Assembly: GCA_015075365.1 (NCBI GenBank) | Contig: JABTUN010000001.1 | Span: 868,001-932,000, forward strand | DNA from: Verrucomicrobiaceae bacterium | Lineage (GTDB): Bacteria > Verrucomicrobiota > Verrucomicrobiia > Verrucomicrobiales > Verrucomicrobiaceae | Length of the DNA: 64,000 nucleotides | Direction: 5' to 3' | Shown: positions 18,951-30,387 of the stretch, one piece after another | How positions within the stretch are numbered: the stretch's first letter is position 1 | How the letters are laid out: the number at the start of each line of letters is the position of its first letter | Program-made: the position numbers and the translations under genes | Notes under the pieces: generated by a model | Told to the model about the DNA's origin: nothing | Seen by the model: the letters and a program-made list of their open reading frames with translations, nothing else | Database searches by the model: none

Positions 18951-19025
18951 ACGGCGGTGGCAGACAAGCAATGCACGGGCCTCCAAAACCCGAAAATGTG
19001 GGCGCGATACCCACCCGTCGTGCCA
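18951..19025 (+). tRNA. tRNA-Trp (CCA), divergent
   Basis: Acceptor ACGGCGG/CCGTCGT, discriminator G, encoded CCA. Anticodon loop CTCCAAA with a C-A mismatch at 31-39. T-arm GTGGG/CCCAC with loop CGCGATA, so positions 54-56 are CGC instead of TTC. The D-arm is reduced to 3 bp and its loop lacks GG (it has AAGCA). A cloverleaf forms, but the canonical elbow cannot. Confidence 0.8.
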
Positions 19026-19040
19026 TTTCAAAACAAGAAC

Positions 19041-19131
19041 GCGGCGGTAGATCGCTAAAGAGGCGACCACCCGGGCTGTAACCCCGACGCTCTTCGGAGC
19101 CAGCACGGAGCATTACCGTGACGCCGCACCC
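19041..19131 (+). tRNA. tRNA-Tyr (GTA), class II
   Basis: Acceptor GCGGCGG/ACGCCGC (last pair mismatched), discriminator A followed by CCC instead of CCA. Anticodon loop CTGTAAC. Long variable arm GCTC-TTCG-GAGC as expected for Tyr. T-arm CACGG/CCGTG with loop AGCATTA (G55 C56). Confidence 0.75.
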
Positions 19132-19135
19132 CTTT

Positions 19136-19224
19136 CATGGAGCGCATGCGCCATGCCCGGCACGACAGAGGATCACCACGCCACAGGTTAGGCGGGTAGG
19201 TCGTGTCACCGCATGCGCTTCATG
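19136..19224 (+). ncRNA. 89-nt long hairpin RNA inside the tRNA array
   Basis: A 15-bp basal stem (19136-19150 with 19210-19224, one G-U) encloses an asymmetric internal loop (10 nt against 4), a 6-bp CACGAC/GTCGTG helix and an apical ACC-A-CGCC/GGCG-GGT stem. It replaces a tRNA in the series and is followed by the usual CCA-TTTCA junction. No tRNA fold fits. The long stem with an asymmetric loop recalls Y RNAs, but that is only a shape similarity. Confidence 0.55.
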
Positions 19225-19237
19225 GCCCATTTCAAAT

Positions 19238-19309
19238 GGCAGGGAGAGCCAGCGCTCCAGCATGTCTCATACGCATGCTTCGCCGGTGCAACTCCGGCCC
19301 CTGCATCCA
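19238..19309 (+). tRNA. tRNA-Met (CAT), divergent
   Basis: Acceptor GGCAGGG/CCCTGCA with a G-A mismatch at position 1-72, discriminator T, CCA. Anticodon loop CTCATAC. Very small D-loop (CAGC) closed by GAGC/GCTC. T-loop TGCAACT. An unpaired 1-72 end is reminiscent of initiator tRNA, and a tRNA-Ile(CAT) identity cannot be excluded. Confidence 0.7.
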
Positions 19310-19315
19310 TTCAAA

Positions 19316-19391
19316 GGTCGTGAAGAAGAACAGCAGACTCGCCTCCTTGTCAGGGAGGAGACAGCGGGGGCAGCACCCGTCGCGACCGCCA
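19316..19391 (+). tRNA. tRNA-Asp (GTC)
   Basis: Acceptor GGTCGTG/CGCGACC, discriminator G, CCA. Anticodon stem CCTCC/GGAGG with loop TTGTCAG. T-loop GGCAGCA (G55 C56). D-arm weakly paired, its loop containing AACAGCA rather than GG. Confidence 0.8.
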
Positions 19392-19399
19392 ATTTCCAA

Positions 19400-19475
19400 G
19401 GGCTCGTAGTGATAGAAGGCAGCACGGCCGGCTTGCACCCGGCAAGCGACGGAGCGTTACCGTCCGAGTCCACCA
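19400..19475 (+). tRNA. tRNA-Ala (TGC)
   Basis: Acceptor GGGCTCG/CGAGTCC with a G-T at the third pair, discriminator A, CCA. Anticodon stem GCCGG/CCGGC, loop CTTGCAC. T-arm GACGG/CCGTC with loop AGCGTTA (G55 C56). The D-loop contains AGGCAG. Confidence 0.8.
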
Positions 19476-19483
19476 TTTTAGAA

Positions 19484-19557
19484 TCCTCGGTGATCTAGCA
19501 GTAGGATGCCGCTCTGTTAAAGCGGCTGCGTTGGTGCGAATCCAACCTGAGGAGCCA
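19484..19557 (+). tRNA. tRNA-Asn (GTT)
   Basis: Acceptor TCCTCGG/CTGAGGA, discriminator G, CCA. Anticodon stem CCGCT/AGCGG, loop CTGTTAA. D-stem ATCT/GGAT with loop AGCAGTA. T-arm GTTGG/CCAAC with loop TGCGAAT (T55 replaced by G). One of the best-formed members of the divergent class. Confidence 0.88.
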
Positions 19558-19567
19558 GTTTCAAGAT

Positions 19568-19648
19568 GCCCACAAGGTGTAACGGAGAGTCTGCACGCAC
19601 CGCTTCTAACGGTAGAGGTTCCAGGTTCGAGTCCTGGTGTGGGTTCCA
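19568..19648 (+). tRNA. tRNA-Arg (TCT), canonical elbow
   Basis: Acceptor GCCCACA/TGTGGGT, discriminator T, CCA. Anticodon loop CTTCTAA. The D-loop keeps GG (AACGGAG), and the T-arm CCAGG/CCTGG has the normal loop TTCGAGT. One of three array tRNAs that keep both GG and TTC. Confidence 0.85.
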
Positions 19649-19660
19649 TTTTTCAAAGAC

Positions 19661-19815
19661 GGAGCACGTCCGGCATAGACGAGGAAACGGTCCCGAAAAC
19701 CGCTGCGCCATAGCACGGCGTCCAGAGTGCAACGGCTAGCGCGATAGCGCATCATTTCAGTCGCGGAGCGCATTTAGCATAGCCGCAGGAGCGGCAATTC
19801 TCTGGTGCTCCGCCA
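19661..19815 (+). tRNA. tRNA-Ser (CGA) with a 65-nt T-loop insertion
   Basis: Acceptor GGAGCAC/GTGCTCC (perfect), discriminator G, CCA. Anticodon loop CCCGAAA, so position 33 is C. Class II variable arm CGCC/GGCG. T-stem CAGAG (19723-19727) pairs with CTCTG (19800-19804), but between TGCAA and TT of the T-loop lies an insertion at about 19733-19797. GCAA flanks the insertion on both sides. Removing it restores the 7-nt loop TGCAATT. Whether it is spliced is unknown. Confidence 0.75.
19733..19797 (+). other. T-loop insertion (intron-like) in tRNA-Ser
   Basis: 65 nt beginning CGGCTAGCGCGATAGCGC, with a GCGC-GATA-GCGC hairpin and terminal complementarity CGGCTA/TAGCCG. A clear homologue sits at the same T-loop position of tRNA-Leu(GAG) at 23630-23696. 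Too small for a group I or II intron. Confidence 0.65.
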
Positions 19816-19823
19816 CTTTTCAT

Positions 19824-19897
19824 CCCTCCGTAGCTCAACAGCAGAGCACCCGCCCGATAAGCGGGAGACCGTGGCGCGACACCACGCCGAGGGACCA
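19824..19897 (+). tRNA. tRNA-Ile (GAT)
   Basis: Acceptor CCCTCCG/CCGAGGG with one C-C mismatch, discriminator A, CCA. D-stem GCTC/GAGC, loop AACAGCA. Anticodon stem CCCGC/GCGGG, loop CCGATAA, so position 33 is C rather than T. T-arm CGTGG/CCACG with loop CGCGACA. Confidence 0.8.
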
Positions 19898-19906
19898 ATC
19901 TCCAAA

Positions 19907-19981
19907 CGCTGGATGGCTCAGACAGATGAGCGGCGGGTTGAAAATCCGCAGAGGTTGGCGCGCTACCAACTCCAGCGACCA
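19907..19981 (+). tRNA. tRNA-Phe (GAA)
   Basis: Perfect acceptor CGCTGGA/TCCAGCG, discriminator A, CCA. D-stem GCTC/GAGC with loop AGACAGAT (no GG). Anticodon loop TTGAAAA. T-arm GTTGG/CCAAC with loop CGCGCTA (G55 C56). Confidence 0.83.
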
Positions 19982-19988
19982 CTTCATC

Positions 19989-20119
19989 GCGGCATTGATG
20001 TAACAGCAACATGCCTGTCTTCCAAACAGAGTATGTCGGTGCAGTTGCCTTCGGCTACGCCAAATGGCTTCGCATTGAGTATTGCGCTACCGCGCATGGC
20101 GTTCCGACATGCCGCACCA
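19989..20119 (+). tRNA. tRNA-Gly (TCC) with a 57-nt T-loop insertion
   Basis: Perfect acceptor GCGGCAT/ATGCCGC, discriminator A, CCA. D-stem ATGT/ACAT with loop AACAGCA. Anticodon loop CTTCCAA. T-stem GTCGG (20035-20039) and CCGAC (20104-20108) are separated by TGCA, an insertion (about 20044-20100) and GTT; a GTT occurs at both edges of the insertion. The inserted sequence differs from the Ser/Leu pair but also has a CGGCTA followed by short hairpins. Confidence 0.75.
20044..20100 (+). other. T-loop insertion (intron-like) in tRNA-Gly
   Basis: 57 nt with small hairpins (GCC-TTC-GGC, GCC-AAAT-GGC). It shares only a CGGCTA-CGC core with the Ser/Leu insertions, so it may be a distant or independent insertion at nearly the same T-loop position. 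Confidence 0.6.
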
Positions 20120-20127
20120 AATTCGAA

Positions 20128-20204
20128 GCTCTCAAAGTGTAAGAGCCATGCACGCCACTTTGCGAAGGTGGAAGCTCGAGGTGCAAGTCCTCGTGAGAGC
20201 ACCA
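20128..20204 (+). tRNA. tRNA-Arg (GCG)
   Basis: Perfect acceptor GCTCTCA/TG A-G-A-G-C complement at 20194-20200, discriminator A, CCA. Anticodon stem CCACT/GGTGG, loop TTGCGAA. D-loop long with GAGCC, no GG. T-arm CGAGG/CCTCG with loop TGCAAGT. Confidence 0.8.
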
Positions 20205-20288
20205 GTCATTAATGACGAATGATGAAATCCGAATGACGAATGGCCTGCATTTCCATGCTTCGTCATTCGTCATTCGTCATTCCTCCCT
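20205..20288. repeat. Low-complexity palindrome between tRNA genes
   Basis: Arms near 20211-20242 and 20254-20281 are built from degenerate copies of GAATGAC/GTCATTC and are mutually complementary. It forms a long hairpin, lies in a spacer that is otherwise about 10 nt long, and holds no gene. Confidence 0.7.
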
Positions 20289-20364
20289 GCCCCTGTGGCC
20301 GACTGAGAAAGGCACCGATCTCGTAAATCGGATCATGTGAGCGCAAATCTCACCGGGGGAGCCA
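20289..20364 (+). tRNA. tRNA-Thr (CGT)
   Basis: Acceptor GCCCCTG/CGGGGGA with a G-A first pair, discriminator G, CCA. D-stem GCC/GGC. Anticodon stem CCGAT/ATCGG, loop CTCGTAA. T-arm GTGAG/CTCAC with loop CGCAAAT. Confidence 0.8.
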
Positions 20365-20372
20365 TTTCAAAC

Positions 20373-20448
20373 ACCCTGCATGTTGTAACAGAAAGCATTC
20401 CTCGTTGTGAACGAGGCGGTGCCGGTGCGACTCCGGCTGTGGGAACCA
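20373..20448 (+). tRNA. tRNA-His (GTG), imperfect acceptor
   Basis: Anticodon stem CCTCG/CGAGG with loop TTGTGAA and T-arm GCCGG/CCGGC with loop TGCGACT are clear; discriminator A and CCA are present. The acceptor pairs only if one T is bulged (CCC-GCA with TGTGGG), so the 5' end is uncertain. Confidence 0.65.
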
Positions 20449-20457
20449 TTTCATCCT

Positions 20458-20532
20458 CGTGCGCAAGGCAAAGAGCCGAGCCAGCGGTCTGCAACACCGC
20501 ATTACCCAGTGCGAGCCTGGGGCGCACGTCCA
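20458..20532 (+). tRNA. tRNA-Cys (GCA)
   Basis: Perfect acceptor CGTGCGC/GCGCACG, discriminator T, CCA. Anticodon stem GCGGT/ACCGC, loop CTGCAAC. D-stem GGC/GCC with a loop containing GAGCC. T-arm CCCAG/CTGGG with loop TGCGAGC. Confidence 0.85.
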
Positions 20533-20540
20533 CTTTTCAT

Positions 20541-20616
20541 CGGATACGAGAGAGCCAGCGAACTCACTTGGTTTGGGACCAAGAGGCGCCCGGGGCAGCA
20601 CCGGGGTATCCGACCA
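20541..20616 (+). tRNA. tRNA-Pro (TGG)
   Basis: Perfect acceptor CGGATAC/GTATCCG, discriminator A, CCA. Anticodon stem CTTGG/CCAAG, loop TTTGGGA. D-loop contains CCAGCG, no GG. T-arm CCCGG/CCGGG with loop GGCAGCA. Confidence 0.85.
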
Positions 20617-20622
20617 TTTCAT

Positions 20623-20694
20623 TGGTCTGTAGCTCAGTGGTAGAGCATCAGGCTCATAACCTGAAGCGCGCTGGTTCGAATCCAGCCGGACCGA
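20623..20694 (+). tRNA. tRNA-Met (CAT), canonical elbow, no encoded CCA
   Basis: Acceptor TGGTCTG/CGGACCG, discriminator A. D-stem GCTC/GAGC with loop AGTGGTA. Anticodon stem TCAGG/CCTGA, loop CTCATAA. T-arm GCTGG/CCAGC with loop TTCGAAT. It looks like an ordinary bacterial tRNA and lacks the CCA found on its neighbours; tRNA-Ile(CAT) is an alternative. Confidence 0.9.
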
Positions 20695-20808
20695 TTATTC
20701 AAAAGCGTAGAGCAGAGCGCAAAGAGCAGAGAGTCCAAACCATCGTCAAAGCACGCGATGAACTCGTTGGGAACTCTTCGCTCTAAGCCCCTAGCCCTTC
20801 GCTCATTT
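20695..20808. repeat. Low-complexity inverted repeat spacer
   Basis: Two arms rich in GAGCAGAG-like and CTCTTCGC-like motifs are roughly complementary, giving one long imperfect hairpin. No gene is seen in these 114 nt. Confidence 0.55.
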
Positions 20809-20884
20809 AGCCCTGTAGCTCAAACAGCAGAGCATGCGCCTTTGAAGCGCAGAGTTGATGGTGCAAGTCCATCCAGGGCCGCCA
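20809..20884 (+). tRNA. tRNA-Gln (TTG)
   Basis: Acceptor AGCCCTG/CAGGGCC (first pair A-C), discriminator G, CCA. D-stem GCTC/GAGC, loop AAACAGCA. Anticodon stem TGCGC/GCGCA, loop CTTTGAA. T-arm GATGG/CCATC with loop TGCAAGT. Confidence 0.87.
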
Positions 20885-20891
20885 ATTTCAT

Positions 20892-20967
20892 GCCCAAGTA
20901 GTCCAACAGCAGAGATAACCGTCTCAGAAGCGGTCAAGTGCGGGTGCAAGTCCCGCCTTGGGCACCA
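20892..20967 (+). tRNA. tRNA-Leu (CAG) with a short variable arm
   Basis: Perfect acceptor GCCCAAG/CTTGGGC, discriminator A, CCA. Anticodon stem ACCGT/GCGGT, loop CTCAGAA. The variable loop is only 5 nt (CAAGT), whereas bacterial tRNA-Leu normally has a long arm. D-loop AACAGCA; T-arm GCGGG/CCCGC with loop TGCAAGT. Confidence 0.85.
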
Positions 20968-21036
20968 TTCATCGCGAAGAACGACCGGCAAAGCAGGCTA
21001 ACTCGATGCTCTTTGCCCTTCGCTCGACGCTTCTTG
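20968..21036. repeat. Low-complexity inverted repeat spacer
   Basis: Arms near 20974-20997 and 21008-21034 (GCGAAGAACGACCGGCAAAG against CTTTGCCC and GACGCTTCTT) are complementary over most of their length. No gene. Confidence 0.5.
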
Positions 21037-21112
21037 GCTCCCGTAGCTCAATGTATAGAGCGCCGCGCTTCGAACGCGGAGGTTGAGGGCGGAAATCCTT
21101 CCGGGAGTGCTA
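21037..21112 (+). tRNA. tRNA-Arg (TCG)
   Basis: Acceptor GCTCCCG/CGGGAGT, discriminator G, followed by CTA instead of CCA. D-stem GCTC/GAGC with loop AATGTATA. Anticodon stem CCGCG/CGCGG, loop CTTCGAA. T-arm GAGGG/CCTTC with loop CGGAAAT, the only array T-loop lacking C56. Confidence 0.8.
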
Positions 21113-21123
21113 TTTTAACGTAG

Positions 21124-21168
21124 CACGAGTTTTCCAACTCGTGGCTGAACGAACTGGAAAGTTCGTTC
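21124..21168 (+). other. Paired hairpins with complementary loops
   Basis: Hairpin 1: CACGAGTT-TTCC-AACTCGTG (21124-21143). Hairpin 2: a perfect 9-bp stem 21147-21155/21160-21168 closing loop GGAA. The tetraloops TTCC and GGAA are exact complements and could kiss. Confidence 0.7.
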
Positions 21169-21174
21169 GACAAA

Positions 21175-21268
21175 GGAACACCAACCGGACCAGCGAGCCG
21201 GGACTCGGTGCTAACGAGATCGTGCCGCCAACGCGCGGCATGAGGAGCATGTCCTCGGCGTTCCGCCA
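21175..21268 (+). tRNA. tRNA-Ser (GCT), class II
   Basis: Acceptor GGAACAC/GCGTTCC with one A-C mismatch, discriminator G, CCA. D-stem CCGG/CCGG with loop ACCAGCGAG. Anticodon loop GTGCTAA. Long variable arm TGCCGC/GCGGCA. T-arm TGAGG/CCTCG with loop AGCATGT. Confidence 0.78.
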
Positions 21269-21280
21269 TTTTCGAGGTGA

Positions 21281-21300
21281 CACAGACACTCCTGTCTGTG
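21281..21300. repeat. REP-like hairpin (ACTCCT loop)
   Basis: CACAGAC-ACTCCT-GTCTGTG, a perfect 7-bp stem. The same ACTCCT-loop element recurs at 22365 and, inside a gene, at 38731. It lies in the leader of the RNA ligase gene. Confidence 0.7.
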
Positions 21301-21331
21301 ATTCAGCTCAGCACAAAAACCACACAGTGCC

Positions 21332-22357
21332 ATGAAACGCAAACTTGCCTCCATCCAGAGCGTCCTCGCCATCGACCCGATCGCGAATGCAGATGCCATC
21401 GAGCTGGCCCGCATCCAGGGATGGCAGTGCGTGGTGAAAAAAGGCGAGTTCCGCGTGGGCGATGCCGGGGTCTTCTTCGAGATCGACTCGGTGCCTCCCG
21501 ATGACGAGCGATTCGCCTTCCTTTGGCGTCCGAAAGACGGCTCCATGGTTGCTCAGCCAGCGAATTTTCGTCTGCGCACGCTCCGCCTTCGCGGGATGCT
21601 CTCGCAGGGGCTCCTCATGCCGCTCGCGCAGTTCCCGGAGATTCCATCCGGCCTGACCACGGGCTCCGATGTCACGGAAATCCTCCGCATTACGAAGTGG
21701 GAGCCGCAAATCCCGCTCAACGATGAAGTGGACGGCCCCTTCCTCCCCGGTGTGCCCAAAACGGACGAAATGCGTGTGCAGAGCGTTCCCGAAGTGCTCA
21801 CCGAGATCGCAGGAAAGCCCTACGTCATCACCGTGAAGTGCGACGGCACTTCCGCCACCTACGGCATGAACCGCCAGACCGGCGTCTTCACCGTTTGTGG
21901 CCGGAATTGGAGCATTAAACGCGGCACCAATGCCTACTGGCATGCTGCGGAGAAATACGGCCTCGAAGCCCTGCTCGGGCGATTCCCTCAATGGATCATC
22001 CAGGCCGAGCTTGTCGGCCCCGGCATTCAAAAGAACCGCCTCGGCCTCAAAGGCATCGAGTTGCGTGTCTTCAATGTCTATGACCAGGAAAGAGGCCGCT
22101 ACCTCGATCACGACGAAGCTGCCGCCATGCTCGCGACACACGGCCTTCCCATGGTCGATGTGCTGGAACGCGGTGAAAGCTTCGCGCATGATCAGGCATC
22201 TCTGCTTGCCCTTGCTGAAGGGTTTTATCCCGGCACGCAAAACGAGCGCGAAGGCCTCGTCATCCGTCCCCAAACGGAAACGCACAGCCTCGTGCTCGGC
22301 GGCCGTCTTTCGTTCAAGGCTATCAGCAATCGCTTCCTCCTCAAAGGCGGCGATTGA
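21332..22357 (+). CDS. ATP-dependent RNA ligase, DraRnl (Rnl5) type
   Basis: 341 residues, matching the DraRnl family. An N-terminal OB-like domain (residues 1-155) precedes the nucleotidyltransferase domain. Motif I is KCDGTSATYG with the adenylated Lys near residue 171; motif III is ELRVFNVYD; motif IV EGLVIRP near residue 309; motif V LSFKAISNRFLLK at the end. DraRnl seals 3'-OH/5'-PO4 nicks in RNA, preferring an RNA strand on the 3'-OH side. It is embedded in the tRNA array in the same orientation, so array tRNAs are plausible substrates (inference). Start ATG 21332 follows a REP-like hairpin. Confidence 0.88.
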   Translation: MKRKLASIQSVLAIDPIANADAIELARIQGWQCVVKKGEFRVGDAGVFFEIDSVPPDDERFAFLWRPKDGSMVAQPANFRLRTLRLRGMLSQGLLMPLAQFPEIPSGLTTGSDVTEILRITKWEPQIPLNDEVDGPFLPGVPKTDEMRVQSVPEVLTEIAGKPYVITVKCDGTSATYGMNRQTGVFTVCGRNWSIKRGTNAYWHAAEKYGLEALLGRFPQWIIQAELVGPGIQKNRLGLKGIELRVFNVYDQERGRYLDHDEAAAMLATHGLPMVDVLERGESFAHDQASLLALAEGFYPGTQNEREGLVIRPQTETHSLVLGGRLSFKAISNRFLLKGGD

Positions 22358-22364
22358 TCAGTGA

Positions 22365-22432
22365 TGCAGACACTCCTGTCTGCATGTGCCTCAGGAAACG
22401 AAGCCTCCAAAAGGCAGACAAGAGTGTCCGCC
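22365..22432. repeat. REP-like element, two inverted ACTCCT-loop hairpins
   Basis: TGCAGAC-ACTCCT-GTCTGCA (22365-22384) is followed by an inverted, slightly decayed copy GGCAGAC-AAGAGT-GTCCGCC (22412-22432). Outer flanks AGTGA and TCACT match the copy at 38727-38790. Confidence 0.75.
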
Positions 22433-22454
22433 TCACTTCAAACCAAACCATTTC

Positions 22455-23190
22455 AATCAACGGGCCGTCGGTCCCGCGAGGAAACTCGAAAACCGATGGG
22501 GGCATGGCCCCGACAGCCGGTGTGAGCCGGTCAGAGGCGAAGGTGCCTGAAAACCTTCGCGCCGTGAGTCATCACGGACAGCCCATGCAAGCCCAGGCCT
22601 CCCGCGAAAGCGAGCGATCACGGCTCCCAAGCCGTGGTCGTCATGGCGATGCAGGTATCGTGGAAAGAACGGCGGCTCAGATGCCCGGAAACGGGGAACA
22701 TCAGCCGCTGGAGAGTAACGGGTGGTGCCGACCTCACGATGAACCAGCCTGCGAACCAGCATGGCCAAGGGTAGTGCCAGCCATCCGAGCCTTGTCGGCA
22801 AGGGTGATGGCGCAGAGCGAGAGGCTCCGGCCGCAGCGATGCGGACGTGGTCTTGAGACTCCGTCGAGTAACCGGCAGGTGAAAGGCAGACGGTGTGTGG
22901 CATTTCGCAGCCCAAAAGGCGGCGACAACCACTGGACACACGCATCGTCGCAGGTTTGCAGCTCCTCGGAAGAGCATCTGACTACGAATCAGATTCCAAA
23001 CGCAAAGAGGTGTCCGGTGTGACGAGCCAAATAGCTCAATCCTCCAGCCAGGTTGGCAATGGAGGCACCCGAGGGCCGCAAGCCCGGAGGTGTCGGTGTG
23101 AATCCGCACATAAGGGGCAGCTCCCCTGAACGGCCCAAAAGGTCGGTGGTAGGTGCAGCGCCGAGAATCGTCACGCGACAAGTGAAACGC
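22455..23190 (+). ncRNA. Candidate large structured RNA within the tRNA array
   Basis: About 730 nt without a convincing ORF and dense in stable hairpins. Examples are a cloverleaf-like unit near 22503-22595 (GCATGGC/CCCATGC ends, CCGG/CCGG arm, 8-bp stem with an 8-nt loop containing TGA) and a 10-11 bp helix around 22614-22641. A three-part hairpin GCGGCT/AGCCGC, GATG/CATC, CCCG-GAAA-CGGG lies at 22672-22708, and AGGGG/CCCCT near 23113. The tRNA-Arg-like element at 22945 lies inside it. Giant ornate RNAs such as GOLLD and ROOL are known from phage tRNA clusters, so a similar RNA is possible; no family motif was matched. Confidence 0.4.
22945..23029 (+). tRNA. tRNA-Arg (ACG)-like, no normal T-arm
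   Basis: Ends TCGTCGC/GTGACGA pair over 7 bp, followed by G and CCA. D-arm GCTC/GAGC and anticodon arm TCTGA/TCAGA with loop CTACGAA are clear. In place of a T-arm, GTTTG (22954-22958) pairs with CAAAC (22997-23001), closing a truncated two-arm structure. A degenerate tRNA or a tRNA mimic. Confidence 0.5.
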
Positions 23191-23328
23191 CACACTTCAA
23201 CAAAGGCAGCTATGCTGTTCGACCTCGTTCGACGGGGTGGATACGAGCCGAACCATCGGCCGCAAACCGATGGATAATGGCTCCAAGGGAGCAGCACGCG
23301 AGGTGTAGTCTCAGCCCTCGCCCACATT
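23030..23328 (+). other. Structured tRNA-like stretch, unassigned
   Basis: No ORF. Hairpins include CCTCC/GGAGG with inner GCC/GGC (23041-23064), GGGC-CGCAA-GCCC near 23073, and a 7-bp CCATCGG/CCGATGG stem closing a 7-nt loop CCGCAAA (23254-23274) that looks like an over-long anticodon arm. It is followed by GCTCC-AAG-GGAGC. A GCCACACTTCAA junction near 23191 resembles array spacers. Probably decayed or atypical tRNA genes. Confidence 0.35.
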
Positions 23329-23479
23329 CTGGCATGGAGCGTGGAGTCACGGCGGCTCCATCATCTTGCTCGTGCTCTTGCTCTTCATCTCCCATCTCTG
23401 CTCCAGGATAGAGTGTGAGTAAGATCACGAGCATGAGCAAGAATCAGCCGTCCTCATCGGCCTCACGCTCCATGCCAGC
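23329..23479. repeat. Composite 150-bp palindrome
   Basis: The outer arms CTGGCATGGAGCGTG (23329-23343) and its perfect complement (23465-23479) enclose inner low-complexity arms rich in TTGCTCGTGCTC and GAGCATGAGCAA. No gene. Same style as the other tRNA-spacer palindromes but longer. Confidence 0.75.
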
Positions 23480-23485
23480 TTTCAT

Positions 23486-23562
23486 GACCCTGTCGTCTAA
23501 CTGGCCAAGACATCCGACTTTCTATCGGATCACTGCGGGTTCGAATCCCGCCGGGGTTGCCA
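23486..23562 (+). tRNA. tRNA-Glu (TTC), canonical elbow
   Basis: Acceptor GACCCTG/CGGGGTT, discriminator G, CCA. D-stem GTCT/AGAC with loop AACTGGCCA. Anticodon stem TCCGA/TCGGA, loop CTTTCTA. T-arm GCGGG/CCCGC with loop TTCGAAT. Confidence 0.9.
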
Positions 23563-23570
23563 TTTTTCAT

Positions 23571-23714
23571 GCTCATGTAGTCCAATCAGCAGAGACACGA
23601 CGTTGAGATCGTCGCCAGTGCGGGTGCGAGCGGCTAAGCGCGATAGCGCGTTGTCATGAGGCGCGGAGCAGACTTGGCACAGCGGCAGGAGCCGCAATCC
23701 CGCTGTGAGCACCA
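23571..23714 (+). tRNA. tRNA-Leu (GAG), short variable arm, 67-nt T-loop insertion
   Basis: Acceptor GCTCATG/TGTGAGC, discriminator A, CCA. Anticodon stem CGACG/CGTCG, loop TTGAGAT. Variable loop 5 nt. T-stem GCGGG (23620-23624) pairs with CCCGC (23699-23703); after TGCGA an insertion (about 23630-23696) precedes AT. Excision would give the loop TGCGAAT, identical to tRNA-Asn. D-loop contains AATCAGCAGA. Confidence 0.75.
23630..23696 (+). other. T-loop insertion (intron-like) in tRNA-Leu
   Basis: Homologous to the tRNA-Ser insertion at 19733-19797: shared CGGCTA(A)GCGCGATAGCGC, CGCGGAGC, and GCAGGAGC blocks in the same order. Ends GCGGCT/AGCCGC can pair. Same insertion site, after the fifth T-loop base. 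Confidence 0.65.
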
Positions 23715-23717
23715 ATT

Positions 23718-24095
23718 TCAAAATGTGATCTTCTTTTCTGGGACAATGATGACGCTTTGATCGGGAACTGCGACATCCGGCTTACCCGTCTCGATGTTGA
23801 TCACTCGCTCTTGCATCACTTGCCCCTCCCAATTGCTGCGGCCAGTCCGAGTAACAAGACGCACTTGCCTCAAGTTAGCGAATGGGGTGCCACCACCCAA
23901 ATTCGCTAAAGATTGCCGGACGGTCAGCCCAGCTTTCCACGGAACGGCACCTTGAGTCGCAGTCTGCCCCAGGACCATCACCGTCCCCTTATTGGCTGGT
24001 TCGATGGTCCATCTCGGCTCACGAGATGAGCAGGAGGTCAGCAAAACACCAGCAACGATTCCCAAGGAAACAGTACAACAAGATATACGGCTCAT
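23718..24095 (-). CDS. Small lipoprotein with an SLBB-like domain
   Basis: 125 residues, the only protein gene on the minus strand within the array. A signal sequence ends in the lipobox LLTSC near residue 21. The mature part has GTVMVLGQTATQGAVPWKAGLTVRQSLANLGG, followed by LRQVRLVTRTG and VPDQSVIIVPEK. This resembles the SLBB domain of polysaccharide export lipoproteins (beta-grasp, soluble ligand binding). Outer-membrane or periplasmic location is likely. It converges on tRNA-Leu(GAG), whose CCA ends 3 nt from its stop. Its place among RNA genes suggests later insertion. Confidence 0.6.
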   Translation of the reverse strand: MSRISCCTVSLGIVAGVLLTSCSSREPRWTIEPANKGTVMVLGQTATQGAVPWKAGLTVRQSLANLGGGTPFANLRQVRLVTRTGRSNWEGQVMQERVINIETGKPDVAVPDQSVIIVPEKKITF

Positions 24096-24142
24096 GCCTT
24101 ATCTTGCCACGAGCGGCCAATCAGCCGCAACACACGAATTTT

Positions 24143-24217
24143 CGGTCCAAAGCTTAGACAGCGAAGCAGCCGGCTTTTAACCGGCATAGCAGGGTGCATG
24201 TCCCTGTGGATCGACCA
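24143..24217 (+). tRNA. tRNA-Lys (TTT)
   Basis: Acceptor CGGTCCA/TGGATCG, discriminator A, CCA. D-stem GCTT/AAGC with loop AGACAGCG. Anticodon stem GCCGG/CCGGC, loop CTTTTAA. T-arm CAGGG/CCCTG with loop TGCATGT. Confidence 0.87.
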
Positions 24218-24222
24218 TTTAC

Positions 24223-24296
24223 CGCCCGTTGGTGAAACAGCATCACGTCTGGCTTACATCCAGAAATCGGAGGCGCACATCCTTCACGGGCGACCA
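24223..24296 (+). tRNA. tRNA-Val (TAC)
   Basis: Perfect acceptor CGCCCGT/ACGGGCG, discriminator A, CCA. D-stem GTGA/TCAC with loop AACAGCA. Anticodon stem TCTGG/CCAGA, loop CTTACAT. T-arm GGAGG/CCTTC with loop CGCACAT. Confidence 0.87.
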
Positions 24297-24300
24297 CACC

Positions 24301-24436
24301 TTTGCGGCAGCGAGAGCGGAGTTCCTTCGTAGCTCATCGGTAGAGCACTTGCTTGAAACAAGATGTAGCAGGTTCAAATCCTGCCGAGAGGCCGGGAAAC
24401 CGGCTTTTCAACACTTCGTTCACCTTTCTCCGCAAA
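24301..24436 (+). ncRNA. Y-RNA-like gene 1, containing a complete cloverleaf
   Basis: Outer stem TTTGCGG (24301-24307)/CCGCAAA (24430-24436), then the conserved 5' CAGCGA and 3' ACCTTTCT internal-loop strands. Inside lies a full cloverleaf (24323-24392): D-arm GCTC-ATCGGTA-GAGC, anticodon stem CTTG/CAAG with loop CTTGAAA (TGA, Ser), short variable loop, T-arm GCAGG/CCTGC with loop TTCAAAT, and an imperfect acceptor. A GCCGG-GAAA-CCGGC hairpin follows. No CCA. A stand-alone reading would be tRNA-Ser(TGA). Confidence 0.6.
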
Positions 24437-24444
24437 AACCATCT

Positions 24445-24541
24445 TCTGAGGCAGCGAGGTCGGGGATACTCCGGTAACCAATGGGTTCAACTCCCATCAT
24501 CCTGGCAACAGGGTGAAGCCCCGACTGCTTTCCTCCTCAGA
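24445..24541 (+). ncRNA. Y-RNA-like gene 2, permuted tRNA-like module
   Basis: Outer stem TCTGAGG (24445-24451)/CCTCAGA (24535-24541), conserved 5' CAGCGA and 3' CTTTCCT, inner stem GTCGGGG/CCCCGAC. Inside, a T-arm ATGGG-TTCAACT-CCCAT is followed directly by CATCCTG-GCAA-CAGGGTG, an acceptor-like 7-bp helix capped by a GNRA loop. The order is that of a circularly permuted tRNA, as in bacterial YrlA RNAs. Confidence 0.65.
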
Positions 24542-24560
24542 TTCTTTTTCCAAAACCTTT

Positions 24561-24696
24561 TCGCGGCAGTGAAGACAGGATTTCTTCGCTCCACACCAAA
24601 CTGAAGTGCGGTTGCCCTGAGTGGGGATCGGCGAAAGCCGGTTCCGGGTTCGATTCCCGGCGATCTCAGTTAGAGCCTGTCTGCTTTTCTCCGCGA
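24561..24696 (+). ncRNA. Y-RNA-like gene 3
   Basis: Outer stem TCGCGG (24561-24566)/CCGCGA (24691-24696), conserved 5' CAGTGA and 3' GCTTTTCT, inner stem AGACAGG/CCTGTCT. The distal part has GATCG/CGATC enclosing a GAAA-capped hairpin and a canonical T-arm CCGGG-TTCGATT-CCCGG (24644-24660). No anticodon arm is present. Confidence 0.62.
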
Positions 24697-24705
24697 TTCT
24701 TTTCC

Positions 24706-24732
24706 AACCGCAGCTCTCACGAGCTTTGCGGT
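24706..24732 (+). other. Hairpin between Y-like genes 3 and 4
   Basis: ACCGCA-GCTC-TCAC-GAGC-TT-TGCGGT, 10 bp with a TT bulge, followed by CACTTTT. It could terminate or process the upstream RNA. Confidence 0.5.
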
Positions 24733-24735
24733 CAC

Positions 24736-24885
24736 TTTTGGGGCAGTGAGATCAGAGATACTTCGAATGAAAATCGACTGGTCGCAGGTTCGAGTCCTGC
24801 TCGCCCGACCTTACCGGGCGGTAGCTCAGTGGTAGAGCAGTTGGATGCTCACGCATCCTTTCTCAGGTCACTTTTCTCCCCAAAA
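24736..24885 (+). ncRNA. Y-RNA-like gene 4, YrlA-type permuted tRNA module
   Basis: Outer stem TTTTGGGG (24736-24743)/CCCCAAAA (24878-24885), conserved 5' CAGTGA and 3' TTTTCT, and an inner helix of about 12 bp starting GTGA/TCAC. The distal module is T-arm GCAGG-TTCGAGT-CCTGC, acceptor TCGCCCG closed by loop ACCTTAC onto CGGGCGG, then D-arm GCTC-AGTGGTA-GAGC and a GGATGC-TCAC-GCATCC hairpin. That is a tRNA with its ends joined and opened at the anticodon stem, the architecture described for YrlA Y RNAs. The Ro60 gene starts 123 nt downstream. Confidence 0.75.
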
Positions 24886-25008: not shown

Positions 25009-26436
25009 ATGAAATTCAACTTCCTCAAGAAACGACCACGCGCTGACACGCTCAACCTCGCGGGTGGCGAGGCGTTCACGGAGACGCCGAAGCTCGAGCT
25101 CGCCTCGATCATGCTCACGTCGATGCTCAAAGACGAGTTCTACCGCACGGCCGATGCCACGGCGAATCGCGTCAAAGAGCTCATCGCGCAGATGAGCGAC
25201 AAGCGTTTCGCTGCGAAGGCCGCGCTGTATGCCCGCAAAGAGGCCGGCATGCGCAGCGTGAGCCACCTCACGGCCGCCGAGCTCGCCAAAAGCGTGAAGG
25301 GCGAGGCGTGGACGGCGCGGTTTTACGATCGTGTCGTGCATCGTCCCGATGACGCCATCGAGATCCTCGCGTGCTACCGCGGTGCGCATGGCAAAGTGAT
25401 TCCGAATTCGCTCAAAAAGGGCCTCGGCCGCGCTCTCGCGCGTTTCGACGAGTATCAGCTCGCGAAATACCGCAAGGACCGCGCCGAGCTCTCGCTGGTC
25501 GATGTCGTGAACCTCGTTCACCCGCCTGCCACGGAGGCTCTGGGCAAGCTCGTCAAAGGCACGCTCGCTCCGGCGGAAACGTGGGAAACCAAACTCACGC
25601 AGGCCGGTGCCGCCGCGGAAAATGACGACGATCTCGCCGAGCGGAAACGCGAAGCCTGGTCGGAACTCATCTGCACGCGGAAGATCGGCTACTTCGCCCT
25701 GCTGCGAAACCTGCGCAACGTGCTCGAATCCGCTCCGGAGGCCGTCGATGCCGCGCTGGCGATGCTGCGCGATGAAAAACTCATCCGCAAATCGCTCGTG
25801 CTTCCATTCCGCTTCCAGACGGCGCTCGATGCCGTGCAGGACAGCCATCTGCCACGTGCCGCCGATGCGCTCGCGGCCCTCAGCGATGCCGTGGACCTCT
25901 CGCTCGCGAACGTGCCGACTTTCCCAGGCCGCACGCTCATCGCGCTCGATGGTTCCGGCTCCATGGTGGGCCGTCCGCTGCAAATGGGGTCCCTCTTTGC
26001 CGCCACGCTGCTCAAGGCCAACGACGCCGACGTGCTCCTCTTCAGCAATGACGCCAACTACGTCACGCTGAACAAGCGCGACAGCACGCTCAGCCTCGCG
26101 AAGTGGCTGCAAGGCCAGGCGCAGGCCGCCGGCACCGATTTCCACTCCATCTTCCAGCGCGCCAACCGCGCGTATGACCGTGTGATCATCCTCTCTGACA
26201 TGCAGGGCTGGATGGGACACCATGCGCCGGTGGACACGTTCCGCCGCTGGAAGGAGCGCCACCGCTGCGATCCGAAAGTGTTCAGCTTCGACCTGAACGG
26301 TTACGGCTCCCTGCAGTTCCCGGAGCGCCAGGTTTGCTGCCTGGCCGGTTTCAGCGACAAAACGCTCGAATCCCTGAAACTGCTCGATGCCGACCCAGGC
26401 GCGCTGATCCGCGTGATCGAGGCTGTGGAGCTGTGA
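25009..26436 (+). CDS. rsr: Ro60/Rsr homologue (TROVE plus vWA domain)
   Basis: 475 residues. Residues 1-300 form the TROVE ring of HEAT-like repeats (ETPKLELASIMLTSMLKDEFYR, ARKEAGMRSVSHLTAAELA, LLRNLRNVLE). Residues about 305-475 form a vWA domain with a complete MIDAS: DGSGSM near residue 313, the Thr in GTDFHS and the Asp in ILSDMQGW. Ro60 binds Y RNA on its outer surface and 3' ends of misfolded RNAs through its central hole, and with PNPase acts in RNA decay. Four Y-like genes lie directly upstream, so this is very likely their partner. Shorter than the human protein, normal for bacteria. Confidence 0.92.
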   Translation: MKFNFLKKRPRADTLNLAGGEAFTETPKLELASIMLTSMLKDEFYRTADATANRVKELIAQMSDKRFAAKAALYARKEAGMRSVSHLTAAELAKSVKGEAWTARFYDRVVHRPDDAIEILACYRGAHGKVIPNSLKKGLGRALARFDEYQLAKYRKDRAELSLVDVVNLVHPPATEALGKLVKGTLAPAETWETKLTQAGAAAENDDDLAERKREAWSELICTRKIGYFALLRNLRNVLESAPEAVDAALAMLRDEKLIRKSLVLPFRFQTALDAVQDSHLPRAADALAALSDAVDLSLANVPTFPGRTLIALDGSGSMVGRPLQMGSLFAATLLKANDADVLLFSNDANYVTLNKRDSTLSLAKWLQGQAQAAGTDFHSIFQRANRAYDRVIILSDMQGWMGHHAPVDTFRRWKERHRCDPKVFSFDLNGYGSLQFPERQVCCLAGFSDKTLESLKLLDADPGALIRVIEAVEL

Positions 26437-26580: not shown

Positions 26581-26835
26581 ATGAATCTCTCACCGACAAC
26601 CCCTCAGGTCATTGATCCGAAAGAACTGCGTCCGCTGCTTCATGCGGAGCTGGACAAGCTCTCGGATGATTATCTTGCCCCCGCTCGCCAGTTGATCTTG
26701 GAGATCCAAATGCAGCAGGTTCTCGAAGAACTCGACGACGCGGCCGACCAAGCCCGTGCTGCGGGCCGAATGACACCTGAAAGGATCGCCAAGGCCATCG
26801 CTGATCATCGAGCCGCTCATCCCTATCGCCGCTGA
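26581..26835 (+). CDS. Antitoxin-like small protein upstream of a PIN toxin
   Basis: 84 residues from the Met at 26581; a start at 26560 is also open. Mostly acidic and helical (ELRPLLHAELDKL, LILEIQMQQVLEELDDAADQARAAG), ending in a basic HRAAHPYRR. No DNA-binding motif is obvious. Its TGA overlaps the ATG of the PIN-domain gene (TGATG), the coupling typical of VapBC-like toxin-antitoxin pairs. Antitoxin identity is inferred from position. Confidence 0.6.
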   Translation: MNLSPTTPQVIDPKELRPLLHAELDKLSDDYLAPARQLILEIQMQQVLEELDDAADQARAAGRMTPERIAKAIADHRAAHPYRR

Positions 26836-27266
26836 TGGTTGTCTGCATCGACACGAATGTAGTCATGGGCATGTTCGGCCGCACGGCTCCATGGCTGCGA
26901 CTCCGGCAAGGCTTGCTGGCCGGTGAATTCGTCTGGGCACTCTCCAATGAGATCCTCCTGGAATACGAAGAAATCGCCGCACGTGAGATGGGCGCTGCCC
27001 ACGGGGCTCAAGTCGGCCTCTTCATCGAACTTGCCCGCCAGAGCCGTGGATGCATCCAGCTCATCACCCCGGAGTTTCGCTTTCAAACCATCCCCCACGA
27101 CGTGGACGACGACAAATTCGCCGACTGCGCCATCTGCGCCCACGCGGATTTTGTCATCACCCTCGACAAGCACTTCCAGCCCATGAAAGGCGCCGGCTAC
27201 AAACCGCAGCCGATCACGCCCGAGGAGTTCATCAGTCGCTTTTTGAAGCCCCGAGGCACGCCTTAG
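26835..27266 (+). CDS. PIN-domain RNase toxin (VapC-like, COG1569 type)
   Basis: 143 residues. PIN acidic residues are visible: Asp in CIDTNVVM near residue 6, Glu in LSNEILLEYEEI near residue 41, then DVDDDKFADCAICAHADFVITLDKHF with the paired Asp near residues 92-101. The closing pattern PITPEEFISRF is typical of the putative toxin, PIN family. Such enzymes cut RNA, and several VapC toxins cut tRNA, which matters next to a tRNA/Ro60/RtcB island. Start ATG overlaps the antitoxin stop by 1 nt. Confidence 0.8.
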   Translation: MVVCIDTNVVMGMFGRTAPWLRLRQGLLAGEFVWALSNEILLEYEEIAAREMGAAHGAQVGLFIELARQSRGCIQLITPEFRFQTIPHDVDDDKFADCAICAHADFVITLDKHFQPMKGAGYKPQPITPEEFISRFLKPRGTP

Positions 27267-28095: not shown

Positions 28096-28238
28096 AGCGA
28101 TGCACGTTACTGAGTCGCTTTAGCAAGCAACATGCATTTCAAATCCGAACGAACACCGCTGCCGGGTCCCTCGTGCCCATTTCTCACCTTCCACGACTCC
28201 ATCACTCCATTCCTCCAACTCTCCACCCACTCACCACC

Positions 28239-29657
28239 ATGAAACCGAGGGACCTCATCCGACTTGGCGTGCCGCAGGGCGCGGCGATCCAGTCTGGCAT
28301 GGACTTCATCGCGAAGTTCATGGCGCAGGGTGGGGAATCGACGCGGCTGGAGGACGAGCTGGGCGCGATCATCGCGAAGCCGGAATCGTTTCTCGGCGAT
28401 CCACTGCGCGAGGTGTTTGCGCGGGATCTGTATGCGCCGGCTTACAAACAGCGCGATGTCCTCGCGCCTTGGGCGCAGTGGGGCTCCGGGCTCGAAGCAC
28501 AGGCGGTGCAGCAGATGGCGAACGCTTGTGCGCTGCCGGTGGCGGTCGCGGGAGCGCTCATGCCGGATGCGCATGTGGGCTACGGGCTGCCGATCGGCGG
28601 CGTGCTGGCCACGGAAGGCTGCGTGATCCCTTACGCCGTGGGCGTGGACATCGCGTGCCGCATGCGGCTCTCGGTTTATGATCGCAAAGCGAGCACCATC
28701 GCGGGTCAGAAGGACCGCCTGGCAAACATCCTCGAAAGCGAGACCTGCTTTGGCATGGGCGGCGCGTTCAAGGAGAAGCGCCAGCACGAGATCATGGACG
28801 AGGACTGGTCCGTTTCGCCCATCACGCGACGCTTCAAAGACAAAGCCTACGCGCAGCTCGGTTCGAGCGGCTCTGGGAATCACTTTGTCGAGTTCGGTGC
28901 CTTTGACGTGGATGCGGAGCAGTCCGCCGCGCTGAAGGAGAGCGGTTTTGACCTGCCACCGGGTGATTACCTTGCGCTGCTGAGCCACAGCGGCTCGCGC
29001 GGCACGGGAGCGCAGGTGTGCCAGCACTACAGCCGCATCGCGATGGATCGTCGCTACGATCTGCCGAAGGAGCTGAAGCACCTCGCGTGGCTCACCTTTG
29101 AGGAAGAAGCGGGCCAGGAATACTGGGCCGCCATGAACCTCATGGGCCGCTACGCCGCCGCGAACCACGCGCTCATCCACAAACGCATCGCGAAGAAAGT
29201 CGGCGCTCATGTCGTGCTCGACATCGAGAACCATCACAACTTCGCGTGGAAGGAAACGCACGTCGTGAACGGCGCGGAGCGCGAGGTCATCGTGCACCGC
29301 AAAGGCGCGACGCCTGCCGGTGCCGGTGTGCTCGGGGTCATCCCCGGCTCCATGGCCACGCCCGGCTACGTCGTGCGTGGCAAAGGCAAAGCGGAGTCAC
29401 TGAACAGCGCCTCGCACGGCGCAGGTCGTGTGATGAGCCGTTCCGCAGCGAAGCAGAGCTTTACCTGGAGCGCCGTGAAAAAGCAGCTCGCCGCCGCCGG
29501 CGTCGAACTCCTCAGCGCCGGCATCGACGAAGTGCCCGGCGTGTACAAAGACATCCACAGCGTCATGGCCGCGCAGACCGACCTCGTGGATGTGCTCGGC
29601 GAGTTTCGTCCGCGCATCGTGAAGATGTGCCCGCCTGGGGAACAGGCGGAGGATTGA
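28239..29657 (+). CDS. rtcB: RNA ligase RtcB
   Basis: 472 residues from ATG 28239; an upstream in-frame ATG at 28173 would add 22 non-conserved residues. RtcB signatures in order: MPDAHVGYGLPIGGV, VGVDIACRM (metal-binding Asp/Cys), GSSGSGNHFVEFG, SHSGSRGTG, the HNF and E pair of the third metal site, and SASHGAGRVMSR with the guanylylated His near residue 391. It joins 2',3'-cyclic phosphate (or 3'-phosphate) ends to 5'-OH ends using GTP and Mn2+, the ends left by most tRNA-cutting toxins. Variant residues (IACRM rather than the common IGCGM) place it in a divergent RtcB branch. No RtcA or RtcR gene is visible. Confidence 0.93.
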   Translation: MKPRDLIRLGVPQGAAIQSGMDFIAKFMAQGGESTRLEDELGAIIAKPESFLGDPLREVFARDLYAPAYKQRDVLAPWAQWGSGLEAQAVQQMANACALPVAVAGALMPDAHVGYGLPIGGVLATEGCVIPYAVGVDIACRMRLSVYDRKASTIAGQKDRLANILESETCFGMGGAFKEKRQHEIMDEDWSVSPITRRFKDKAYAQLGSSGSGNHFVEFGAFDVDAEQSAALKESGFDLPPGDYLALLSHSGSRGTGAQVCQHYSRIAMDRRYDLPKELKHLAWLTFEEEAGQEYWAAMNLMGRYAAANHALIHKRIAKKVGAHVVLDIENHHNFAWKETHVVNGAEREVIVHRKGATPAGAGVLGVIPGSMATPGYVVRGKGKAESLNSASHGAGRVMSRSAAKQSFTWSAVKKQLAAAGVELLSAGIDEVPGVYKDIHSVMAAQTDLVDVLGEFRPRIVKMCPPGEQAED

Positions 29658-29687
29658 AACGCGGAGGCCATCAGCCGCGGTGCGATG

Positions 29688-29767
29688 TTCTCGGTTCACG
29701 GTTCTCAGTTCGCTGTTTGTCTCTCGAAGAAAGCAAAACCGCGAACCGGGAACTGAGAACCGCGAAT
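29688..29767. repeat. Low-complexity palindrome between rtcB and the HNH gene
   Basis: Arms with GGTTCTCAGTTC (29700-29711) and GAACTGAGAACC (29750-29761), each embedded in degenerate repeats of the same words, form a long imperfect hairpin. Confidence 0.6.
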
Positions 29768-29802
29768 TTCCCTGCAGAACACCCCAAACCTTCATTTTTG
29801 TC

Positions 29803-30387
29803 ATGAACGACCAACTCACCAAAACCACCGTCCTCGTGCTCAACCGCAACTGGCAGGCCATTGGCGTGAAAACGCCGATGGAGGCCTTCAGCATGATCGC
29901 GGGTGGCGCGGCGACAGCGCTCGACATCGAAACGGGCGGTCACATTCGGCCCGTGACCTGGGCGGAGTGGCTCATGCTGCCTGTGCGCGAGGGCGACAAC
30001 GTCATCGGCACCGTCAAAGGGCCGGTGCGCGTGCCTGCGGTGCTCGTTTTGGCGAAATTCGACAAGGTGCCCAAAAAGCGCCCGAAGTTCGGCGTGCGCG
30101 GCATTTGGGAACGCGATGGCGGTGTGTGCCAATACACCGGCCGCAAGCTCCGCGCCGGCGAAGGCAACATCGACCACGTCGTGCCGCTTTCTCGCGGCGG
30201 ACCGACCTCATGGGAAAACTGCGTCCTCGCCGACAAACGCGTGAACAGCCACAAAGGCTCCAAACTGCCTGAAGAAGCTGGTTTGAAGCTGATGCGTCGT
30301 CCCACCGTGCCGCGCGAGGTGCCTGTGACGCTGCTGATCAAGAACACGCACCGCGTGCGGGAGTGGGAGATGTTCCTGTCGGAATGA
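29803..30387 (+). CDS. HNH endonuclease
   Basis: 194 residues from ATG 29803; the longer frame from 29680 covers a palindromic repeat and is unlikely to be coding. N-terminal VLVLNRNWQAIGVKTPMEA is typical of a bacterial HNH subfamily. The HNH core is VCQYTGRKL, then NIDHVVPLSRGGPTSWENCVLADKRVNSHKGSK (residues about 110-155), with the catalytic His in IDHV and the Asn/His following. DNA cleavage is expected. It lies 145 nt after rtcB in the same orientation and closes with a strong terminator, so it may end the island transcript. Confidence 0.85.
   Translation: MNDQLTKTTVLVLNRNWQAIGVKTPMEAFSMIAGGAATALDIETGGHIRPVTWAEWLMLPVREGDNVIGTVKGPVRVPAVLVLAKFDKVPKKRPKFGVRGIWERDGGVCQYTGRKLRAGEGNIDHVVPLSRGGPTSWENCVLADKRVNSHKGSKLPEEAGLKLMRRPTVPREVPVTLLIKNTHRVREWEMFLSE

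Follow-up and report, generated by a model that had tools for sequence, protein, structure and literature searches.

The locus described here is an array of tRNA genes in a stretch of 64,000 nucleotides from a Verrucomicrobiaceae bacterium with a 6.9 Mb genome (GCA_015075365.1, contig JABTUN010000001.1, positions 868,001 to 932,000). This whole stretch is referred to as the window, and positions are counted from its first letter. Twenty-five tRNA genes, the same number as given in an earlier note on this DNA, lie on one strand at 18951-24296 and cover all 20 amino acids, and in most of them the D and T loops that form the tRNA elbow depart together from the canonical bacterial pattern. The array sits between the Mfd and ZnuA genes and a gene for a Ro60-type protein. 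Its tRNA genes are interrupted by an RNA ligase gene of the DRB0094 family and a GOLLD RNA, and are followed by about four Y-like RNAs and then by genes encoding Ro60, a PIN protein, RtcB, and an HNH protein. Neighboring genes with Pfam matches are chromosomal in kind, although no search was aimed at integrase genes or attachment sites.

Because the usual programs reward TTC in the T loop and GG in the D loop, tRNA genes were sought with a purpose-written cloverleaf finder that ignores both loops and relies on stems, spacing, anticodon-loop hints, base 8, and CCA. The top score in 61.6 kb of null sequence was 17.5, and 19 of the 25 window genes scored at least 20. The other six comprise tRNA-Tyr and tRNA-Ser(GCT), which had lower finder scores (17.3 and 16.3), tRNA-Met at 19238, which was called by ARAGORN, tRNA-Leu(GAG), which came from a finder for long T loops, and tRNA-Ser(CGA) and tRNA-Gly(TCC), which were annotated by eye. 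A Ser-like cloverleaf at 24323-24392 (score 16.0) falls within a Y-like RNA and is excluded from the 25. The tRNA genes are listed below (+, strand; D and T, loop sequences).

18951..19025, +, tRNA-Trp(CCA); D ACAAGCA, T CGCGATA
19041..19128, +, tRNA-Tyr(GTA); long variable arm; T AGCATTA
19238..19309, +, tRNA-Met(CAT); short D loop; T TGCAACT
19316..19391, +, tRNA-Asp(GTC); D AACAGCAG, T GGCAGCA
19400..19475, +, tRNA-Ala(TGC); D TAGAAGGCA, T AGCGTTA; G3-U70 retained
19484..19557, +, tRNA-Asn(GTT); D AGCAGTA, T TGCGAAT
19568..19648, +, tRNA-Arg(TCT); canonical GG and TTC
19661..19815, +, tRNA-Ser(CGA); long T-loop insert; relatives without the insert in loci L045 and L062
19824..19897, +, tRNA-Ile(GAT); D AACAGCA, T CGCGACA
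19907..19981, +, tRNA-Phe(GAA); D AGACAGAT, T CGCGCTA
19989..20119, +, tRNA-Gly(TCC); long T-loop insert
20128..20204, +, tRNA-Arg(GCG); D AAGAGCCAT, T TGCAAGT
20289..20364, +, tRNA-Thr(CGT); D ACTGAGAA, T CGCAAAT
20374..20448, +, tRNA-His(GTG); D AACAGAAA, T TGCGACT
20458..20532, +, tRNA-Cys(GCA); D AAGAGCCG, T TGCGAGC
20541..20616, +, tRNA-Pro(TGG); D GCCAGCGA, T GGCAGCA
20623..20694, +, tRNA-Met(CAT); canonical GG and TTC; CCA not encoded
20809..20884, +, tRNA-Gln(TTG); D AAACAGCA, T TGCAAGT
20892..20967, +, tRNA-Leu(CAG); variable loop of 5 nucleotides; D AACAGCAG, T TGCAAGT
21037..21109, +, tRNA-Arg(TCG); D AATGTATA, T CGGAAAT (base 56 is G)
21175..21268, +, tRNA-Ser(GCT); long variable arm; T AGCATGT
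23486..23562, +, tRNA-Glu(TTC); canonical GG and TTC
23571..23714, +, tRNA-Leu(GAG); long T-loop insert
24143..24217, +, tRNA-Lys(TTT); D AGACAGCG, T TGCATGT
24223..24296, +, tRNA-Val(TAC); D AACAGCA, T CGCACAT

T-loop positions 54-56 read NGC in 21 of the 25 genes, CGG in one (tRNA-Arg(TCG)), and TTC in three, so that base 55 is G in 22. The earlier note had counted 21 genes with TGC, CGC, GGC, or AGC, which is borne out, the CGG gene being one more. It had also seen that tRNA-Arg(TCT), tRNA-Met at 20623, and tRNA-Glu, which keep GG in the D loop, retain TTC, and these are indeed the only window genes with TTC. For the other D loops it had listed AGCA, CAGC, GGCA, and AGCC; the replacement of GG stands, but a simpler rule describes it, in which A18-G19 takes the place of G18-G19. 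We refer to tRNAs with the altered elbow as rewired.

Homologous loci were collected in two steps. The first sample consisted of 29 fetched regions, in which the finder identified 418 tRNAs including those of the window, and the wider sample, taken around relatives of Ro60, added 80 named genome loci (the best 80 of 126) and 61 viral loci. The tallies exclude finder scores below 20, which drops one of 20 window matches, leave out tRNAs with T-loop inserts, and count identical tRNAs once, reducing 1278 to 1014 distinct tRNAs. Base 55 is G in 740 of these, U in 270, and another base in 4. Among 707 tRNAs with G55 and C56 the core of the D loop is AG in 611 and GG in 43, most of which read AGG, and 53 have neither motif. 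Among 261 with U55 and C56 it is GG in 257, AG in 1, and neither in 3. Within Verrucomicrobiota loci, GG without a preceding A occurs in 15 of 719 G55 tRNAs and AG without GG in none of 83 U55 tRNAs. The two-state switching of the D and T loops proposed from the window alone is thus seen across many homologous arrays, and independent changes in either loop, which the proposal had named as its refutation, were looked for and are rare. Fisher's test of the coupling between AG and G55 gives p = 4e-44 (418 tRNAs, first 28 sources), a value inflated by the non-independence of related genes.

The switch also occurs within single tRNA species. Nineteen anticodons are found in both elbow states, two of them only by doubtful U55 matches. 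Nine elongator tRNA-Met genes, selected by a shared acceptor start and with nearly identical stems, fall into two sets: seven combine an AACAG-type D loop with UGC, and two (one in the window, one at L071) combine GG with UUC, with no D-loop/T-loop hybrid among the nine. Outside the array, tRNAs of the same genome carry TTC in 42 of 42 cases and GG in 41 of 42 (42 fetched of 45 matches above the family cut-off). The genome contains a TruB gene, and the suggestion that G55 would escape TruB modification is sound in principle, base 55 not being U.

In the known elbow, as set out in PMC4810234, base 19 pairs with base 56, and base 18 slots between bases 57 and 58 and contacts base 55. If this geometry held in rewired tRNAs, the base after A18 would therefore have to match base 56, and the 33 G55 tRNAs in which base 56 is not C bear on this expectation. 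Read post hoc, they show A18-U19/A56 in 4, G18-U19/A56 in 10 (one tRNA-Arg(TCG) lineage), U19/G56 in 4, A18-C19/G56 in 2, A18-A19/U56 in 4, C18-A19/U56 in 1, and G19/U56 in 1; the remaining seven do not fit. Since this reading was post hoc, a blind shuffle count was added, leaving out D loops shorter than 6 nucleotides. Of 23 distinct D/T-loop combinations with base 56 not C, 12 contained an A followed by the partner of base 56, compared with a shuffled mean of 3.7; none of 20,000 shuffles was as high, and an earlier set of 5,000 had peaked at 12. The 19-56 pairs seen are G-C, U-A, A-U, and C-G. Separately, viral contig L188 encodes tRNA-Gly and tRNA-Asn (12192 and 12284) with A19-U56 that retain G18 and U55, a swap of 19-56 alone.

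Bases 54 and 58 also co-vary, sharing 1.02 bits. In the 740 G55 tRNAs the combination is U-A in 426, G-G in 108, A-U in 103, and C-A in 61, and A occupies position 60 in 97 of the 108 G-G loops and 98 of the 103 A-U loops, but in 22 of the 61 C-A loops. Stand-ins thus exist for the closing pair of the T loop as well.

The earlier note had explained the same loops by an antiparallel kissing contact of two to three base pairs between GC(A) in the D loop and (N)GC in the T loop. GCA is indeed the commonest triplet starting at G19 (69 of 268), but base 20 is C in only 105 of 262 G55C56 tRNAs that have a single AG and enough loop, and three pairs could form in 32. Base 20 is thus free, which rules against the kissing contact, and it is base 19, next to A18, that tracks base 56; we therefore regard this contact as very improbable. 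Nor would the tRNAs resemble mitochondrial type II tRNAs lacking a D-T contact, as 18-55 and 19-56 co-vary. A change of 18-55 from G-U to A-G, with the 19-56 pair retained, would account for the loops better than kissing. Compared with the canonical bacterial elbow (G18 with pseudouridine 55 (Psi55), G19-C56, U54-A58), rewired tRNAs share the cloverleaf, G53-C61, a purine at 57, Watson-Crick 19-56, and a mostly encoded CCA, whereas 18-55 is A-G rather than G-U and 54-58 can be G-G, A-U, or C-A.

Apart from the missing G18-G19 and U54-U55-C56, the rewired tRNAs keep several features of ordinary tRNAs. They form cloverleaves with canonical stem lengths, G53-C61 is present in 734 of 740, and CCA is encoded in 622 of 740. 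Identity elements are in place for Ala (G3-U70, 32/32), Cys (U73, 31/31), Asp (G73, 29/29), Asn (G73, 28/28), and Pro (C1-G72, 43/44), as well as for Ile, Leu, and Trp. Decaying pseudogenes could explain why these genes score below most other tRNAs of the genome against the tRNA model and why some lack CCA, but G53-C61, the identity elements, and the matching changes have been kept across a phylum. The matching base changes and identity elements speak against decay, and we consider it the most improbable of the alternatives.

The rewired state is concentrated in one lineage. Among 141 genomes of the order, a Ro60 relative (E <=1e-10) was found in 49 and a GOLLD match in 10. The 47 named Verrucomicrobiota loci comprise 39 rewired ones and 8 with at most one tRNA; among the 33 other named loci, none has two G55 tRNAs and 17 have at least two U55 tRNAs. 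All 39 named rewired loci were picked via Ro60, and several of the contigs are short. Chthoniobacter flavus Ellin428 and Brevifollis gellanilyticus are among the named strains with G55 tRNAs, and the window Ro60 shares 96% identity with the protein encoded in a Prosthecobacter metagenome genome. A tree was built from 58 hand-picked Ro60 proteins, with rows containing a stop left out; in it, all 26 rewired loci and four without a visible array fall in one Verrucomicrobiota group (support 93/99, below the tree program's mark for firm), and 11 canonical loci from Bacteroidota, Acidobacteriota, Chloroflexota, and one viral contig fall outside it. Beyond that group, G55 was seen in one Saprospiraceae tRNA-Met and on viral contig L188 (7 of 20 genes), which has a Ro60 distant from the group.

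This single grouping would be expected if the change brought no benefit, that is, if a founding mutation had been followed by compensatory drift while the cell relied on its regular tRNAs. Against this stand the 19 anticodons found in both states, the retained identity elements, and the persistence of canonical arrays of the same kind in other phyla, and we consider drift quite unlikely. A phage source of the rewired state is not supported by scans of viral contigs. Among the 61 viral loci with a Ro60 relative, rewired genes occur only in L188; a search for the rewired D-arm/T-arm pattern, covering one D-stem type only, returned 14 viral stretches, of which one (L260) contained a rewired tRNA by the finder; and no relatives of the array RNA ligase were found in viral contigs.

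The features that accompany the tRNA genes in the window are as follows.

21332..22357, +, RNA ligase, DRB0094 family (TIGR02306, 175.5 bits, cut-off 151)
22888..23317, +, GOLLD RNA (159.1 bits, gathering score 150)
24302..24880, limits approximate, +, about four Y-like RNAs with canonical TTC T arms, the last matching YrlA at 24754-24868 (41 bits, gathering score 69)
25009..26436, +, Ro60-type protein with a TROVE domain
26835..27266, +, PIN_3 domain protein
28173..29657, +, RtcB ligase
29680..30387, +, HNH protein; the true start is probably an inner ATG

The locus thus contains the TROVE-domain protein typical of Ro60/Y RNA systems and a GOLLD RNA above its gathering score inside the tRNA array. 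YrlA matches of 41, 41.5, 40.9, and 31.8 bits are all below gathering, with tRNA-like T and D arms visible. Ro60, Y-like RNAs, RtcB, and RNA ligase belong to classes known for binding or repairing tRNA-like RNA. Ro60 adjoins all 39 named rewired loci, as follows from their choice, and the commonest neighbor is the HNH protein (32 of 39), which also adjoins a canonical GOLLD array, L065. The PIN protein is not considered core because it was found in one of the 39. PADLOC gave no match for Ro60, RtcB, the ligase, or PIN, and only weak HNH-domain matches for the HNH protein.

Another possibility is that the elbow changed to escape the Ro60/Y-RNA machine of the locus itself, with Y-like RNAs imitating the canonical elbow. 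Among 120 candidate Y-like starts found with a loose pattern, the T arm is TTC in 62, NGC in 8, and not visible in 50, and the constant presence of Ro60 points the same way, with the proviso that it was the basis of selection. However, rewired arrays L062, L063, and L066 have no Ro60 in the stretch fetched, and canonical arrays with Ro60 exist, which makes this explanation rather improbable. One NGC Y-like RNA, at L097, also shows a D-like loop with AG.

We favor, as probable on balance, the explanation that the array is a second chromosomal tRNA set in which A18-G55 is predicted to stand in for G18-Psi55, the 19-56 pair is kept, and which would likely work when canonical elbows are attacked. 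Its structural part, which we hold to be highly probable, draws on what can be read from sequence: the 18-55 coupling, the matching changes at 19-56 and 54-58, the intact stems, the identity elements, and the CCA encoded by most genes. The A18-G55 contact would take over from G18-Psi55, while the outward-facing 19-56 Watson-Crick pair would stay. The transcripts would be made, folded into the L shape, charged, and used in translation, and it is likely that rewired tRNAs still fold and work, although they would be unable to carry Psi55 or Gm18. The benefit would be that an enzyme or nuclease hitting ordinary tRNAs no longer finds U55/Psi55 and G18 to grip, so that the set could keep functioning while canonical tRNAs are being cleaved or marked at the GG/TPsiC elbow, and Ro60, the ligases, and GOLLD may serve the same emergency. 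Perhaps the set helps the cell survive attacks on its ordinary tRNAs; that it evades something acting on canonical elbows is a tentative suggestion, possible rather than probable. More doubtful still is an extended form, in which chromosomes across the Verrucomicrobiota would carry the A18-G55 set as an elbow-orthogonal translation kit, marked off from the ordinary tRNAs of cell and phage and kept by a Ro60/Y-RNA machine with Y RNAs that mimic the ordinary elbow; ordinary tRNAs could then be sacrificed while the marked set sustains translation.

Several observations weigh against the proposal of a second, attack-resistant set. The 53 G55C56 tRNAs with neither AG nor GG lack the expected D loop, and seven of the 33 tRNAs with base 56 not C (Ile at L043, Cys at L050, and five tRNA-Thr(TGT) with D loops of 4 nucleotides) do not fit 19-56 pairing. 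Core contacts are weaker in G55 than in U55 tRNAs, both for U8-A14 (516/740 and 228/270) and for 15-48 as A-U or G-C (330/740 and 216/270). C33 replaces the near-universal U33 in 94 of 740 G55 tRNAs, mostly in tRNA-Ile(GAT) (25/37) and tRNA-Leu(GAG) (14/17). Base 73 is not constant in Glu, Phe, His, Gln, Arg, and Thr, and the long variable arm is missing from most tRNA-Leu, the variable loop being 5 nucleotides long in 64 of 78. The GOLLD array L065, from the same order, is canonical in seven of eight genes, which runs counter to a simple phylum rule; its one exception, tRNA-His (ATGAGTT / TGCGAAT), is possibly an early state of the change. Among the 39 named rewired loci RtcB occurs in 17 and RNA ligase in 2, which makes repair enzymes inconstant partners, and at the locus itself no nuclease or other enzyme recognizing the canonical elbow came to light.

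The weaker core contacts, C33, the variable base 73, and the short tRNA-Leu arm mean that use in translation is not certain. Rewired tRNAs may instead be charged but kept outside translation, as decoys, sensors, or amino-acid donors, with an elbow that keeps them off EF-Tu and the ribosome. The staphylococcal cell-wall tRNA-Gly is a precedent for a charged tRNA outside translation, and the core contacts, C33, and short tRNA-Leu arms are in keeping with such a role. On the other hand, the window covers all 20 amino acids, CCA is encoded in most genes, and the 19-56 face, which touches the ribosome, is the part that has been retained; on these grounds a role outside translation seems unlikely, and a set that works in translation remains our preferred explanation.

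According to PMC4810234 and PMC7912444, conservation of Psi55 and G18 is universal. tRNAs without GG or TPsiC are known singly (tRNA-Pyl) and in mitochondria. As described in PMC7609411, tRNA-Pyl and type II mitochondrial tRNAs lack G18-G19 and TPsiC and serve translation, but they are single species or organelle sets in which the D-T contact is said to be lost or replaced, whereas here a whole set is found on a bacterial chromosome and 19-56 is kept by matching changes. Arrays beside GOLLD occur in phages, prophages, and mycobacteria, as summarized in PMC12286853. The window array is likened to them by gene content and not by elbows. It has chromosomal neighbors (Mfd, ZnuA), and its own elbows are rewired. 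Phage tRNAs whose altered anticodon loops are proposed to let them dodge host tRNases (PMC10264068) share the proposed idea of spare, uncut tRNAs, but here the change lies in the elbow and the set is in bacterial chromosomes. Finally, TROVE proteins, tRNA-like Y RNAs, RtcB, and ATP-dependent RNA ligases in one locus match the Ro60/Y RNA systems outlined in PMC7824862 and PMC7790460; here a complete tRNA array, different in its elbow, stands beside them.

The 740 distinct natural G55 tRNA genes, nearly always with a matching change at base 18, amount to a natural experiment on elbow requirements. The set uncouples the modification-bearing pair from the one that stacks on the ribosome and RNase P, provides ready-made tRNAs incapable of Psi55, and offers a definite candidate partner for bacterial Ro60, Y RNA, and GOLLD. 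No report of an A18-G55 tRNA set was found in searches of open-licence papers; older suppressor-tRNA selections of elbow variants may hold related pairs.

Some tRNAs of these arrays carry long T-loop inserts, giving loops of 65-81 nucleotides, mostly after about base 59 and several ending in CAAT. They are found in the window (19661-19815, 19989-20119, and 23571-23714) and at L041, L045, L046, L049, L059, L061, L084, L099, L100, L128, and L135. A finder gave 20 matches in 1.16 Mb of Verrucomicrobiota loci and one in 1.39 Mb of control loci. The insert, at the bulge site 59-60, may be a putative extra arm or be spliced out by the local ligases. A genome-wide repeat was considered and rejected, as a single good further copy of the tRNA-Leu(GAG) insert exists in the genome and lies within this array. 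The gap between tRNA-Tyr and tRNA-Met (19131-19228), which has no cloverleaf or Rfam match, holds a 14-bp inverted repeat (about GCGCATGCG / CGCATGCGC) with an inner stem. At the rewired array L062, four matches to Acido-Lenti-1-like RNA at 17453-18451 lie just under the gathering score (31-35 bits compared with 37).

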